Both the position numbers and the translations under genes were made by a program. The notes beneath the pieces were generated by a model that worked only from the letters and a program-made list of their open reading frames with translations, ran no database searches and was not told the origin of the DNA. From contig JAHQIY010000006.1 of assembly GCA_019054805.1 (NCBI GenBank), positions 124,001 through 188,000 of the forward strand: a DNA stretch of 64,000 nucleotides, read 5' to 3'. Source of the DNA: Brachionus manjavacas. Taxonomy: Eukaryota > Rotifera > Eurotatoria > Ploima > Brachionidae. Shown piece after piece: positions 2,979 through 20,824 of the stretch. How positions within the stretch are numbered: the stretch's first letter is position 1; each line of letters opens with the position of its first letter.

Positions 2979-4467
2979 GGGTCTGTTGCAATATGTGACT
3001 ATTGATTCCTACTTAATTATGTGATCAGGACTGTTCACCTATTAAGTGACCAGTAAATAAGTGACCAGTAAAAAAGTGACCAAAGATTTCCAAAAAAATT
3101 AATATTAAAAAGTTTATTAAAATATGTGACCAAAAACAATTATACGTGACCAAGTGAAAAAATATGTGACCAGTTATTATGTTATGTTACCAAATATTAA
3201 ATTATGTGACCAAATAAAGAAACTAAAAAAAAATGTGTTTTTTTGAAATATGCAATTTTAAACCCTTTCTCATTTCGAAATAATTTCCACAATGTGGACA
3301 TTCTACCGGATTTTTTTTACCATTTAAATGCTTATTCACATTTTGAAGTGTTTCTTTTGAATTTTTTGGTTCATTTAATGAATCAATCTCGTATTGCAAG
3401 CTTTTATATTTGACACTTGATAAACTAATTGTTTCAAGTTTATTATTTATTGCCTCTACACGATCACTAATAGTTGTATGATATCGGCGTCTATATTTCT
3501 CTTCATCTGACGATCTTACATTGTTTCCTTCATGAATACTAATATTGACCTTTTCACTAGATTCGTCTTGAACAAAATAAGCTTCATTCTCGAATATTAT
3601 ATTACCGTCAACTTCATCAGCATCATTCTCAGAATCACCATCATAAACATTAGATACAGGATTATTAGTCATTATAGTTAATTGCTTAGTACTTGGTTCT
3701 GAAACAGAATCCTCAACATTGACAATATTTTCTGATGATACCAAGTCTAAATTGTCACTTTGGCTACCGTTAGTTGGGCAGACCAACATTTGATAATGGC
3801 TAAGACTAGCTTAATTGGTTTACGAAATAAACTAAAGAAGGAATCAGAACAAATTGAAGAATATGTGGTATAAGTTTTACAACGCCAAGTAAGCATTCTA
3901 TCGTTTCTCTTATCTATTTTTGATTTGTTCCTGTTCCTCAAATAATGGCTTAATGCTTTTCCAAAACTATTACAATTTTTATTTGTGAAAATTTTTGTAC
4001 GTCAATTAAACCAATTTGGCTCCGTTAGTGAATATTTTAAATTCTTCGGACTCTTGAATGTTCATTTTATTTCTTTTCAAATTTAATTTTTTTTTAATTT
4101 AAACGCAAATTTATATTGCTTAATTTTTCAAAAGAGTTATTTAGAAATTTTTGTTTATGAAGATTAAAAAAGCGAAGCAAAATTTAGTCAACTTTTTCAA
4201 TTTTCAATTTTATTATTGATTTTCGTATTGTTTAAAATAATTTAATAAAAATTTATTTGGTGACCAATAAAAAAATATTTAATAAAAATTTAAGTGACCA
4301 AAAAATATTTTATGTGACAAATTAAAAATTTAAGTGACCAAAAACAAATTTATGTGACCATGTTTTTTTAATCTTTAATTTTTTATGGTCTCTTATTTAC
4401 TGATCACTTAAAAGGTGAACAGTCCTGATCACATAATTAAGTAGGAATCAATGGTTGCAATAGACCC
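2979..4467. mobile_element. 1.49-kb TIR transposon with subterminal GTGACCA repeats
   Basis: The left end (GGGTCTGTTGCAA, then about 60 bp from 3001) and the reverse complement of the right end (GGGTCTATTGCAA...) match over roughly 70 bp, with a few extra bases in the left arm. Flanks read TAAAATTGAC on the left and TAAAAATTGAT on the right, a probable 9-10 bp target duplication with one base gained; that length suits MULE-like elements. Inside both ends the heptamer GTGACCA and variants recur about eight times (3040-3215) and about four times (4255-4362), all in the same orientation. The element contains a C2H2 zinc-finger ORF on the - strand and no recognisable DDE transposase, so it is probably non-autonomous. 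Confidence 0.8.
3223..3789 (-). CDS. C2H2 zinc-finger protein encoded inside the TIR element
   Basis: An uninterrupted 188-residue frame. Residues 1-100 are acidic and Ser/Asn-rich. Residues about 100-160 are charged and helix-prone, with several heptad-like leucines. The C-terminus holds one C2H2 finger (CPHCGNYFEMRKGLKLHISKKH, about residues 164-185) three residues before the end. The family is not recognised. Because it sits between the element's inverted repeats and is intact while the surrounding transposases are broken, it is probably an element gene rather than a host gene. It might bind the subterminal GTGACCA array; that is inference. A short + strand frame (MAKTSLIGLRNKLKKESEQ..., 3796-3873) begins 7 bp from this start and ends at a GTATAAG donor-like sequence, so the pair may be divergently transcribed. 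Confidence 0.55.
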   Translation of the reverse strand: MLVCPTNGSQSDNLDLVSSENIVNVEDSVSEPSTKQLTIMTNNPVSNVYDGDSENDADEVDGNIIFENEAYFVQDESSEKVNISIHEGNNVRSSDEEKYRRRYHTTISDRVEAINNKLETISLSSVKYKSLQYEIDSLNEPKNSKETLQNVNKHLNGKKNPVECPHCGNYFEMRKGLKLHISKKHIFF

Positions 4468-9199: not shown

Positions 9200-10473
9200 T
9201 TAATTCGAAACAGGCATTGTAATAGTTAAATTTTTAGTCTTTTTATCAAATTGAGCACCGCATTCTTCCTGTTTTAAACAATAGGGCAAATAAATATCAA
9301 GATGATAGATTTGTGACCTAGTGTTCAAAAGGAGTCGATCTTCTCCAATATCCAATTGCAACGAATTGGCTGATATCTTTGAACAAAAAAATTATTTATC
9401 AAAAAATATAAAAAATGAACACTTGAAGTTACAATATTTGGCAGTTCGATCTCTGCTACCAAAAACTCGACCAACTCACCTTCTTGTGGCTCACGATAAA
9501 TCTTGTATTTTGGAGTCTGTGACCTGATTGTTTAATTTTTATTGAACAGTTAATTCAATCTAAATTTGAAAAGTACTTGAGTTCATTTTGGCCGTCGGCT
9601 CTTTTGGCTTTTTCATTTTGCTCGTTTTTGTCCACTTCGGCTATTAGAGGCTTTGACTTTAGACGAATGTATTGCTCTTTTATTTGACCCATAAATTTTT
9701 TATTTTTGAGCAATTTACAATCTTAAAAAATAGATATTTATATATATTGAAAAAAAAAATTAACAATTTTTGTTCGAAAAAAAATAGATTACTTTTGTCT
9801 ATTTTTATCGAATATTTTTCTTCTAGGCCTTCGATTGCAATAGACATCAAAAATCCCATAAATGTTGGATATTTCTGTATTTTGTGTAAAAACTCAGGGC
9901 TAATACAAACATCATAAGCAGTGCATCCGGTGCCAGCTTTAGGCAAAAAAATTAATATTCAATTGATGAAAATAATTCTAATGTACCATTGTCTAATTCG
10001 GCGTGAGCTTCGCCCAAACTCATTGGCACACGAAATTCAAATGCTGCATTCTCCGGGTTTTCCTGCTCAATTATTTTCAACAGTTCTTGCTCCGATATAT
10101 CTTTGGGAGCATTTATCTTGAAATTTTTTCAATAAAAAATAAAAAATTTTTCTTTTTTTTGTTTACTTCTGATGATTGACAAATGTTTAGAAAAATTTTT
10201 TGACTAGTTCGCGCATTTTTTGTCTTGAAACAAATGCCTGGCTGTGGCAAAAATGATTTATAATTTTTGTCTTTGGACTCGGATTTGTTCTCTTGGCCAG
10301 AATAGAGCTTGAATTTAAATAGAAAAAAAGTTGAAAAGAACTTTTTTTAAAAAAAATACTTTGGCAAGCATGCTGAGTTCTTCGGGACCGATGTTGTTCA
10401 AGGCATCGTTCAACTCGTCTTCATTAGACTCATTTTTGTTCAAAAGAATTTTTTCTATCAATTCATCGCTCAT
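9200..10473 (-). CDS. pih1d1: PIH1D1-like R2TP/dynein-assembly chaperone adaptor
   Basis: Seven exons on the - strand: 10360-10473, 10167-10307, 9987-10116, 9793-9936, 9577-9721, 9433-9523 and 9200-9376, joined across six GT-AG introns of 50-71 bp in an open frame of 313 residues (human PIH1D1 is 290). Residues about 57-190 are the PIH domain: LPQPGICFKTK, QKIFLNIC, FRVPMSLGEAHAELD, GCTAYDV and IAIEGLEEKYSI follow human PIH1D1 closely. Lysines 66 (FKT) and 75 (QKIF) align with the pair that contacts phosphorylated DSDD-type motifs in clients such as TEL2. Residues about 240-313 form the CS-like domain (EDRLLLNT, YHLDIYLPY, AQFDKKT). Known role: links RUVBL1/2-RPAP3-HSP90 to clients in the cytoplasm, including PIKK kinases, snoRNPs and axonemal dyneins. 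Start: ATG at 10473 after TTTCAAG, a possible leader acceptor. An AATAAA lies about 17 bp past the stop. Confidence 0.95.
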
Positions 10474-10583
10474 TTTAGTTTTCAGCTTGAAAGTTGTTTT
10501 GGTTTAAAAGCATAAATAGAAATAAATAGGAACTTATGTGTCACGTGACCTTGATTGAAAGCGAACAAAAGTGGTCTTTGTGC

Positions 10584-10597
10584 GTTGCCATGGCAAC
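10584..10597. promoter_or_regulatory. X-box (RFX factor site) in the pih1d1 promoter
   Basis: GTTGCCATGGCAAC is a perfect 14-bp palindrome and an exact match to the RFX consensus (GTNRCC-AT-RGYAAC form). It lies 111 bp upstream of the pih1d1 ATG, within the distance range known for ciliary genes in worms and flies. The surrounding 10530-10640 is GC-richer than the nearby intergenic DNA. The family logic is known; occupancy here is inferred. Confidence 0.75.
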
Positions 10598-16660: not shown

Positions 16661-18544
16661 TTATTATTGACTCCCGATTATGGCAATGCTAACCAAAAAA
16701 ACTTGAAGAATAAAAAGTTTGTTCAAATGTTAATGTTATGAAATATAAAATGTCTGAATAATCGAGGTCAAAATATGAGGCCATTCAAATCCAAGTCCAT
16801 TTTTTTCTTATAATTTGTTAATATTTTTTTTTTGCGAGAAAAAAACGTCTTTAAAAATTTTAAATTTTCGCTAAAAAGAAAAGACTAATTGAAAAAAAAA
16901 ATCCAACTTTTTTCTCCTATTTCTAGTTATTTGTTGTACGAATGCTTAAGCCTGCAAATGATGTGCAAAATCATATCAAAATGCATTACGCTAAAATTTG
17001 CAGAGTTTTACAAATTGTATGACAGTGTGTGCAATTATGTTCTAATTGTGAGCATCTTGTTTAGTTGTTTTTTAAAATAAAAAAGGACACATTTTAGAAA
17101 ATAAAATTCTATGTTTAAAAATAATTTTAACGATTAAATTAAACTTGTTTAGCCAAAAAAAAAAGTTTTTGTGACAAAAAACAATGCTGACTTTATGTTG
17201 AGGTCTTGTCGGCTACAAGCCTCGATGATTGAATAAATTAAGATTTCATTAGTTGGGACCACACTGGTCGAGTTTATTTATTTTTTATATTTTATATTAC
17301 AAAAACGGAAAAGAGTTAATTTTTTGAAGTTTCACAGAAGTAAATTATTTTTTAGCAATATTTTTAATTTTTAAAAAATGTTGAGTGTGATTTATTTATT
17401 TGTTTTCTGTACCGAGCAAAGGCTCCTTCAGATTAAAAAAAAAAATCAAAATAAAATAAAGTTAAATAAGATAGAATAAAAATTTAAAAAATAAAATTTA
17501 ATAAAATGGTCTAAAATAGAGGAAAATTAATGAAATTGAACTAGAGAGTTACAGGATACATATTTTTAAAAAATTGTGACCCACAGAATTTACTTAAGTA
17601 GTAGTTTTTTAATTGTTTTTTGTTAAGTAGAGTGGAACGCACATTCAGCTCGTTAGGATTAAAATAAAATGGTAAATTAAGTTATGATTTAAGTGGTAAG
17701 TGGTGGCTTTGGTGTTTGAGTGCCGAGTGACTGGACGTTTTGGAAAGTTTTCAAAAGATGAAAAGAAAATGAAATGCCTAGAGAGATACCAAAGAGTGTG
17801 TGTGAATGGGTTTGATGTTGCAGCGTTTGATTGAGTGTGTGTGTGTGTTTAAGTGAAAATCTGGTTTCGTGCTAAGGAGCACCACGCATCAAGAAATGTT
17901 TTATCTTGAAACAATTATTTAATTGCAATTGTATGTAGGATGGGATGGGGGTCGGATCTGTTTGAAATATGGTTAAGTCCAGATATTTAATCAGACAATT
18001 CTAAAGTGAGCACATAAGATAAAATGAATGAAAGAAAATAAATAATAAAAAAAAATGAAAAAAAAAAAGAAGAATGTTTGTGTTGTATTCGACCGACCGA
18101 CCGACCGGCCGACCTCACACTTAAGACTTATGCACACACATACACACGCAAACACAAACACTAACAATCGATTCAAGATGAACTCTTACACTTTGAACGA
18201 ATAAAAAGATAAAACAATAAAAATAGCCCCAGTGCTTATTTTCTCACGCTCTGTTTGACTCTCACGATATTAAGACAAGTCATAATACAATTTTGTTCAA
18301 TTATTCAACAACAACAATCGCAAGACCATTTTAAAAAATAAAAAAAACAAAACCCCAAACAAAAAAAAAGAAAAAAAAAATTAAAAAAAAAGTTCACATT
18401 CATAGTGTTGTTGTTGATGTTATTTTTTTTTATTTCTGTTCATTTTTAAATAATCAAATTTTAGTTTTTCAGCTTTTAGACAATGATATTTGTTTGATAC
18501 GATTGTGCTTCTTCTTTTTCTAGTTTTGATTGAATGAATGAACC
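16661..18544. other. TCF upstream region and probable 5' UTR
   Basis: Apart from the LINE-A tail, no gene is recognised. 17690-18240 has mixed composition with (GT)n at 17837-17848 and a (GACC)n run at 18090-18114. A polypyrimidine tract ending TTTTTCTAG at about 18515-18523, some 20 bp before the TCF ATG, looks like a 3' splice site. The 5' UTR may therefore have an upstream exon or receive a spliced leader. Confidence 0.45.
17400..17475 (-). repeat. solo LINE-A 3' tail
   Basis: Read on the - strand: TTTTTTAATCTGAAGGAGCC, then TTTGCTCGGTACAGAAAACA and A/T-rich tail. It carries the GGAGC/GCTC hairpin shared with 22745-22780 and 26430-26465, without coding sequence. Confidence 0.7.
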
Positions 18545-20824
18545 ATGCCTCATTTATTGAACGAAAATTGCCCAGACAAGTCAAGCGACACGAAGAGCGA
18601 AGACGATAACCCGTTGCTCAACAACAACCCATTGTCGTCTTCATCGTTCTCCTCCTCCTCACCACCTCCACCACAACAACAACCACCACCAGCACTACCA
18701 CAATCACATGGCATCCAATCTGGCTCGCATTCATCACTCGCCGAAGCGTCAAGGTCAGCGATGGCCTCCGATGACGACGAGGACAAATCACCGCACTCAT
18801 CGCCCCACAAAAGCCTCACACCAACGCCTACCCAAGAACCAAATGACTCAAACACCAACCCTACCAGCACTAACAACAACACTAACAACAACAACATGGC
18901 GGTCAACACATCGACGCACTCGACCAACCCGGACGACTGCGACGAAATCAAAGTGTACAACGAAGAAGGCGCCGAAGAAGACGAGCAACGCACTTCGGAC
19001 AATTTGACGGAGGAAAAGAGCGAACTAATCGAGGCGAAGCCATCGGTGGCCATGGCGTCGTCGTCGTCCTCCTCGTCGCATCCGTTCTCAGTCAACAATT
19101 TGATGCTGTTCAACACAGGTCACTCGGACGCGTCCACCACCGCCAACTCCCAACAATCGTCTCTAAATCCATTTCTGCTCGGCTACAGATCACCACTCTA
19201 CAACCCACTGTACTCGCCCGAGCTAGCCAGTCACTTTGCATCATGGTGGCCAGCAGCAGCGGCCGCCAGTGCTCTCTACAACCCGGCCTCCAATCCATTC
19301 TCGGCATTCGCCTACCAACAGCAACAATTCGCAGCCGCGGCCGCCCTCTCCCGCTTCAATCCAAGTCTGTTCTTGAACGCTGCTGCCGCAGCTGCCGCCG
19401 CCAACAACAACAACAACAACAGCAACAACAACAGCAACAGCGGCAGCAGCAGCAATAGCAAAAACGATGCGGGCTCTACCAATCCGCACAACATGGCCTC
19501 ATCGTCTTCATCGTCGTCATCGTCCTCCTCTTCGTCAGCATCTCCCTTTTCCTCTTCGTCCACCACCTCCTCGTCAACCACCAGCTCGTCTCACAACAAA
19601 CTAAATCAGCCTCTACAAAACAGTAAACAATTCAATCACATCTCAAACGCCAACAAAATAAAACAAGAAATAAACTCACCTCGTCAACACCATCACCACC
19701 AACAACACCACCAGCAACTCCATCAACAACACCATCAACAACACCATCAACAGAACCATCACCACATGAACCAGCACAATATGATCATGTCACAATCAGG
19801 AGGAGCGGCAGCGGCGGCGGCGGCGGCAGGTCCACCACCGCCTCACATCCAATTGCCGTCCAAATCCAAAAAGCCTCACATCAAAAAGCCGCTCAACGCG
19901 TTCATGCTGTTCATGAAAGAACAACGAGCCAAAGTGGTCAACGAGTGTACGTTGCGCGAGTCGGCGGCCATCAACCAAATACTAGGTCGCAAGTGGCACG
20001 AGTTGGAGCGAGGCGAACAGGCCAAGTACTACGAGATGGCGAGGCAGGAGCGTCTCAAGCACATGCAGTTGTATCCGGGATGGTCGGCGCGCGACAACTA
20101 CGGCCTCAAGAAAAAGAGGCGACGCAAACGAGAAAAAGTGATCGGCGAGAACGGCGAGTTGCCGAGAAAGTGTCGCGCCCGGTACGGCCTGCAGCAGATC
20201 AATTTGTGGTGCAAGCCGTGCAGACGCAAGAAAAAGTGCATCCGCTTTGCCAACAACGAGAACGCGGAGGCGGGCTCGAATGGCGTGGGCGCAGTCAGTC
20301 CCATGATCATGGGCCCCAACGGCCACATGTATCCCAACCCCATGTACAACCCGATGATGATGAGCGGCGACTCGGCGGCCGGCAGCTTGAACGGCGCCAA
20401 CAGCGAGGACGAGTACGAGGACGATTTTGATGATATGGGCGACGAGCTGCTGCCCGGCGGCCAAGAGGACGAGACCGACGACGAAACGGACTCGGAGGAC
20501 GACGAAAACGAGCTGGACGACAGCAAGGACATGTCAGCCCTCGCCGCCCACCACGGCTTCACTTCCTCCTCGGCCTCGTCGCCAATGTACCACCCGAACA
20601 AAAAGGCCAACTTGGACACCGGCGCCCACCCTCTATCTCAAATACACCAGCAATTTCATCAGCAATTTCAGCAATCAATGGATTCATCTAAAAACGATTT
20701 GATGCAGCACATCCAGCAGATGCATCACCAGTTTCAGAGTGGACACGCGGCCATCAACGCTCTCAACTATTCAATGTTCAATGGAGCTGTCAATGAGCCC
20801 GCGCACACTGCTGCTCCCAATTAA
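18545..20824 (+). CDS. TCF/pan: TCF/LEF transcription factor (Pangolin type) with HMG box and C-clamp
   Basis: A single uninterrupted 759-residue frame; an in-frame stop two codons before the ATG fixes the start. Residues about 130-167 ([18 protein letters not shown], then [14 protein letters not shown]) match the beta-catenin-binding motif at the N-terminus of other TCFs, with the acidic core and spaced Leu residues. The HMG box runs about 445-515 ([37 protein letters not shown]), followed by the basic [10 protein letters not shown] tail. The C-clamp has Cys 543, 557, 560 and 566 (CRARYGL...[11 protein letters not shown]). Known role: nuclear effector of Wnt/beta-catenin signalling that binds CTTTGWW sites, with the C-clamp reading nearby GC-rich helper sites. 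Unusual points: an extra 130-residue low-complexity leader, poly-Ser, Asn, Ala, Gln/His tracts, a strongly acidic stretch at about 620-660, and no introns although neighbouring genes have them. Coding GC is far above the flanks. Confidence 0.97.

Follow-up and report, generated by a model that had tools for sequence, protein, structure and literature searches.

In Brachionus manjavacas, a perfect palindromic X-box, GTTGCCATGGCAAC, lies in the promoter of the gene encoding PIH1D1, an adaptor of the R2TP HSP90 co-chaperone, and the sequence evidence indicates that PIH1D1 is very probably an RFX target. We analyzed a 64,000-nucleotide stretch of contig JAHQIY010000006.1 (hereafter, the window) and counted the motif across the genome. 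We favor, with a probability of roughly 0.75, the reading that the palindrome functions as a promoter X-box through which an RFX1-type factor raises PIH1D1 in ciliated cells together with other ciliary genes. In this model, the RFX1-type factor would bind the X-box as a dimer, PIH1D1 transcription would increase in ciliated cells along with that of DNAAF6, DNAAF3, CCDC103, and other ciliary genes, and the capacity of R2TP, or of an R2TP-like HSP90 co-chaperone, would rise while axonemal dyneins are being made. If this is true, one concrete 14-base element would tie R2TP/HSP90, a machine for protein assembly in general, to the programme of ciliary gene expression.

The PIH1D1 gene and its promoter

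GTTGCCATGGCAAC was the sole match in the window at up to two mismatches (shuffled sequence gave a mean of 0.07), and it fits, on both strands, both consensus forms of the X-box, GTNRCCN{0-3}RGYAAC and GYTRYYN{1-3}RRHRAC. Between it and the ATG of PIH1D1 (10473-10471, minus strand) are 110 bases. The gene, spliced by hand and re-translated, encodes 313 residues on the minus strand in seven exons, which are separated by six introns, all GT-AG and 50-71 bases long (Table 1). Its product carries a PIH1 domain (E 4.6e-35, 121 bits) and a PIH1_CS domain (E 1.2e-17, 64.7 bits), both above the cut-off, and all seven of its PDB matches are PIH1D1, in a database that may lack other PIH proteins. The first-pass annotation, which had described an ideal RFX palindrome in the PIH1D1 promoter, is thus borne out by both the 14-mer and the domains; the site is just upstream as it said, at a distance of 110 rather than 111 bp.

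The genome holds four PIH1_CS genes; besides PIH1D1, we identified Kintoun, PIH1D2, and DNAAF6 by eye. The PIH1 domain alone had matched three times, at two genes, hinting at a loss of other PIH genes, with PIH1D1 inheriting their work; this idea was rejected because PIH1_CS matches four genes. In the alignment, PIH1D1 keeps the lysines equivalent to K64 and K166 of the phospho-peptide pocket of mouse PIH1D1, which the available text of one report implicates in phospho-Tel2 binding (PMC4058522). Their conservation makes a general R2TP role plausible for PIH1D1 here too.

The same promoter contains a second palindrome, GGTCACGTGAC, which resembles an E-box of the promoter type. Genome-wide, it gave 79 strand hits at 63 places, compared with 4 hits for its reversed control, and it was found within 600 bp of three of the 37 perfect X-boxes (0.02 expected), the pair at PIH1D1 being the closest. 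It would probably sustain basal PIH1D1 expression for general R2TP clients. No structured RNA was detected in the window by Rfam at the gathering score.

A genome-wide search, which a domain split by introns could escape, yielded a single RFX DNA-binding domain above the cut-off. It is identical to that of human RFX1 (structure 1dp7) at 60 of 75 residues, and the gene also encodes an RFX BCD domain. No X-box was found in the 1240 bp before the open frame of this gene.

On the plus strand of the window, a 760-residue open frame (18542-20824), largely one exon, was read by eye as a TCF/LEF (pangolin) gene with an HMG box. We considered whether the X-box serves this distant TCF/LEF-like gene or another, unseen divergent transcript. 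The palindrome is directionless, and no coding sequence was recognised from about 10.6 to 18.5 kb, across which a 5' UTR could reach back; however, the distance to the TCF/LEF-like frame is about 7.9 kb, far more than that to the PIH1D1 ATG, and the sites at DNAAF6, DNAAF3, and CCDC103 are likewise 47-86 bp from their own ATGs. We regard a divergent target as very improbable and take PIH1D1 as the gene served.

Table 1. Features of the PIH1D1 locus and X-box sites elsewhere in the genome
Feature	Position	Strand	Remarks
Perfect X-box palindrome GTTGCCATGGCAAC (predicted RFX dimer site)	10584..10597	.	Motif scan and genome counts
Palindromic E-box-like element GGTCACGTGAC	10540..10550	-	33 bp from X-box, ATG side
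GTCACGTGAC, second PIH1D1 promoter element			Same element as GGTCACGTGAC
PIH1D1 exon 1, with ATG	10360..10473	-	Hand-spliced, re-translated
PIH1D1 exon 2	10167..10307	-	Hand-spliced, re-translated
PIH1D1 exon 3	9987..10116	-	Hand-spliced, re-translated
PIH1D1 exon 4	9793..9936	-	Hand-spliced, re-translated
PIH1D1 exon 5	9577..9721	-	Hand-spliced, re-translated
PIH1D1 exon 6	9433..9523	-	Hand-spliced, re-translated
PIH1D1 exon 7, with stop codon	9200..9376	-	Hand-spliced, re-translated
Near X-box GTTGTCATGGAAAC			61 bp upstream of DNAAF6 ATG
Near X-box GTTGCCATGACTAC			86 bp upstream of DNAAF3 ATG; one half-site imperfect
13-base palindromic X-box-like GTTGCTAGGCAAC			47 bp upstream of CCDC103 ATG
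X-box beside BBS8			E 6.5e-196
X-box beside SPATA17	L032:4001-4014		One-mismatch site
X-box beside centrin-like protein gene			
X-box beside CCDC92			
X-box beside CDKL1-like kinase gene			First exons of gene not located
X-box beside CDKL2-like kinase gene			
X-box beside B-box protein gene resembling ZBBX			Pfam match just below cut-off
X-box beside alpha-kinase gene, read as eEF2K			About 0.7 kb
X-box beside FAM65			About 0.9 kb
Exonic perfect X-boxes	L014, L016, L022, L023, L024, L026, each at 4001-4014		
Exonic one-mismatch X-boxes	L036, L037, each at 4001-4014		

Genome-wide excess of the palindrome

We searched the AT-rich genome (114,169,980 bases) with GTTGCCATGGCAAC, using the reversed 14-mer as a control. 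Perfect copies numbered 37 (control, 0), places with at most one mismatch 98 (control, 4), and those with at most two mismatches 317, about one site per 360 kb; since the control gave 64 at the last threshold, about a fifth of these may be background. For perfect copies in 114 Mb, Markov models (order 0-5) predicted 0.04-0.11; their training set was about 321 kb of retrieved sequence, itself enriched for the surroundings of X-box sites. Two CpG occur in the reversed control, but with an observed/expected ratio of CpG of 1.00 in the sampled sequence, the gap between motif and control is not a product of CpG depletion. A chance origin of the excess is ruled out by the genome-wide count and the Markov expectation.

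Of the 61 one-mismatch places, 13 were listed, and in every one of these the change fell at position 4, 5, 10, or 11, compared with the 32% share that the Markov model gives these positions; variation at the same four is permitted, in part, by the consensus forms as given in the available literature text. Beyond the palindrome, in the flanks of the sites read (L009-L038 and the window), a G adjoins it in 35 of 62 flanks and a T stands at the third base out in 39 of 62; these preferences give a longer form near TYGGTTGCCATGGCAACCRA, and the PIH1D1 copy is without the adjoining G.

That the PIH1D1 copy itself is a functionless chance occurrence would fit the presence of the palindrome in coding exons as well, where some copies may be without a regulatory role. 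We consider this highly unlikely, given 37 perfect copies against about 0.1 expected and the position of this one so close to the ATG of a dynein assembly factor. A functional X-box at PIH1D1 is the better reading of these data.

Genes beside the X-boxes and the case for ciliary control

We read 31 sites, comprising 21 of the 37 perfect copies, counting the one in the window, and 10 of the 61 places that deviate at one base. Twenty-three were non-coding, 10 of them tied to a recognisable gene and 13 without a gene link. Eight of the 10 linked genes, scored non-blind with labels from general knowledge, are ciliary or centriolar, namely PIH1D1, BBS8, SPATA17, a centrin-like gene, CCDC92, and CDKL1-like, CDKL2-like, and ZBBX-like genes; the name ZBBX for the B-box protein gene is our assumption, as is eEF2K for the alpha-kinase gene. 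To our knowledge, the alpha-kinase (eEF2K-like) and FAM65 genes are not known as ciliary. The site at SPATA17 lies between it and an opposite-strand gene resembling DZANK1, as if common to a divergent pair. Among the 13 sites without a gene link, two perfect X-boxes (L017 and L027) are within about 70 bp of long open reading frames that matched nothing in Pfam and had no meaningful counterpart in the PDB. The gene at L012 is a polycystin-type channel by Pfam with no PDB match at E 1e-4.

The check proposed with the first-pass annotation, a search for common X-boxes at other dynein assembly factors, found X-box-like sites at DNAAF6, DNAAF3, and CCDC103 (Table 1), 47-86 bp from the ATGs, in a genome where sites with at most two mismatches average only one per about 360 kb. 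No X-box was present upstream of Kintoun (1377 bp), RUVBL1 (304 bp), or IFT46 (about 290 bp), nor in the stretch read at RUVBL2, which may be its first intron. PIH1D2 and RPAP3 (named by eye) are arranged head to head (L041:2574-2748) with their ATGs 173 bp apart, and their gap is possibly a common promoter for two R2TP-type partners; the intergenic stretch (L041 2561-2740) held no X-box. An X-box-like site was thus seen in four of the six assembly-factor promoters judged, PIH1D1 included, and, among the R2TP core genes judged (PIH1D1, RPAP3, and RUVBL1), only at PIH1D1; these tallies leave out RUVBL2, CFAP298 (coding throughout the stretch obtained), and SPAG1 (sequence ending short of the 5' end), and come from stretches of unequal length in which sites farther away would be missed. 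Given that Kintoun, PIH1D2, and IFT46 have no X-box in the stretches read, the motif is not a label shared by all ciliary genes of this genome.

Eight of the 31 sites, six of the 21 perfect and two of the 10 one-mismatch copies, were called coding, each standing in a long open frame with a hexamer score >40 around it, with one doubtful case (L009, score 22) entered as non-coding. Their host genes include exportin-like, laminin-G, Kalirin/Trio-like, Nipped-B, and WDR3 genes, several of them plainly non-ciliary, and the expectation for all coding sequence together is about 0.1 perfect copies. Because the exonic copies fall in each of the three reading frames, the DNA word rather than the peptide seems to be kept, and they may be exonic RFX sites. 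With such sites in non-ciliary genes, an X-box alone is no proof of ciliary control.

The main competitor of the favored reading is that RFX binds the X-box but drives PIH1D1 in all cells, the site serving as an ordinary promoter element with no cilia-specific control. Sites that precede the alpha-kinase and FAM65 genes or sit in non-ciliary exons agree with it, as do the second palindrome adjoining the PIH1D1 X-box and the broad expression of zebrafish pih1d1 described in the literature text available. However, the ciliary or centriolar nature, by general knowledge, of eight of the 10 gene-linked sites and the X-box-like sites at three further assembly factors, with none at RUVBL1 or RPAP3 in the stretches read, argue against it, and we judge it unlikely, though less so than a divergent target or chance. 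Induction in ciliated cells thus stays our preferred account. The proposal of the first-pass annotation, that an R2TP housekeeping adaptor has come under ciliary control, gains from the RFX1-like factor, the motif excess, and the sites at BBS8, SPATA17, and the three assembly factors, but it goes too far in its framing: PIH1D1 does more than housekeeping, since zebrafish and flies already use it in dynein assembly, the second palindrome may keep up basal expression, and the motif is not diagnostic by itself.

A bolder extension, which we hold to be doubtful, is that in this lineage RFX sets the R2TP level via PIH1D1 alone, RUVBL1 and RPAP3 showing no X-box in the stretches read, so that the dose of the client-binding adaptor would, during ciliogenesis, direct a general HSP90 co-chaperone to dynein clients, and that RFX sites are also kept in coding exons of non-ciliary genes. 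In practical terms, the near-perfect palindromic RFX code of this compact animal genome could help list its ciliary genes.

Comparison with known ciliary X-box systems

Zebrafish and fly PIH1D1 already count among the dynein assembly factors, and knockdown of fly Pih1D1 leads to loss of dynein arms (PMC6028525). The available part of the Drosophila assembly-factor literature does not mention an X-box for Pih1D1. Within the open literature searched, with subscription journals and supplements outside its scope, we found no earlier report of an X-box or RFX at PIH1D1 and none on X-boxes, RFX, and cilia in rotifers.

Relative to known PIH1D1 proteins, the rotifer adaptor of the R2TP HSP90 co-chaperone is alike in its PIH1 and CS-like domains and its pocket lysines; we do not claim that the coding part differs, and the novelty is confined to the promoter. 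In the ciliogenic RFX systems (nematode DAF-19, fly Rfx, and vertebrate RFX2/RFX3), the X-box has the same form, since GTTGCCATGGCAAC equals the fly consensus as quoted in the available text of PMC3414849, and an RFX1-like factor is present here as well. Nematode X-boxes in many cases precede the coding sequence by 100-250 bp (PMC2873420), and the PIH1D1 site is likewise promoter-proximal. Unlike the known ciliary X-boxes, the site here stands at PIH1D1, and its function is predicted from sequence. A further parallel is with the Fd3F/Rfx-controlled Wdr92, Dnaaf4, and Dnaaf6 genes of Drosophila, in which an X-box is near the start of a dynein assembly factor gene, as here; the predicted fly Dnaaf6 site is GTTGCCAGGAAA in the available text (PMC9298768), compared with GTTGTCATGGAAAC at DNAAF6 in the rotifer. 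The fly sites are often half-sites accompanied by a Fox motif, whereas the site at rotifer PIH1D1 is a perfect palindrome.
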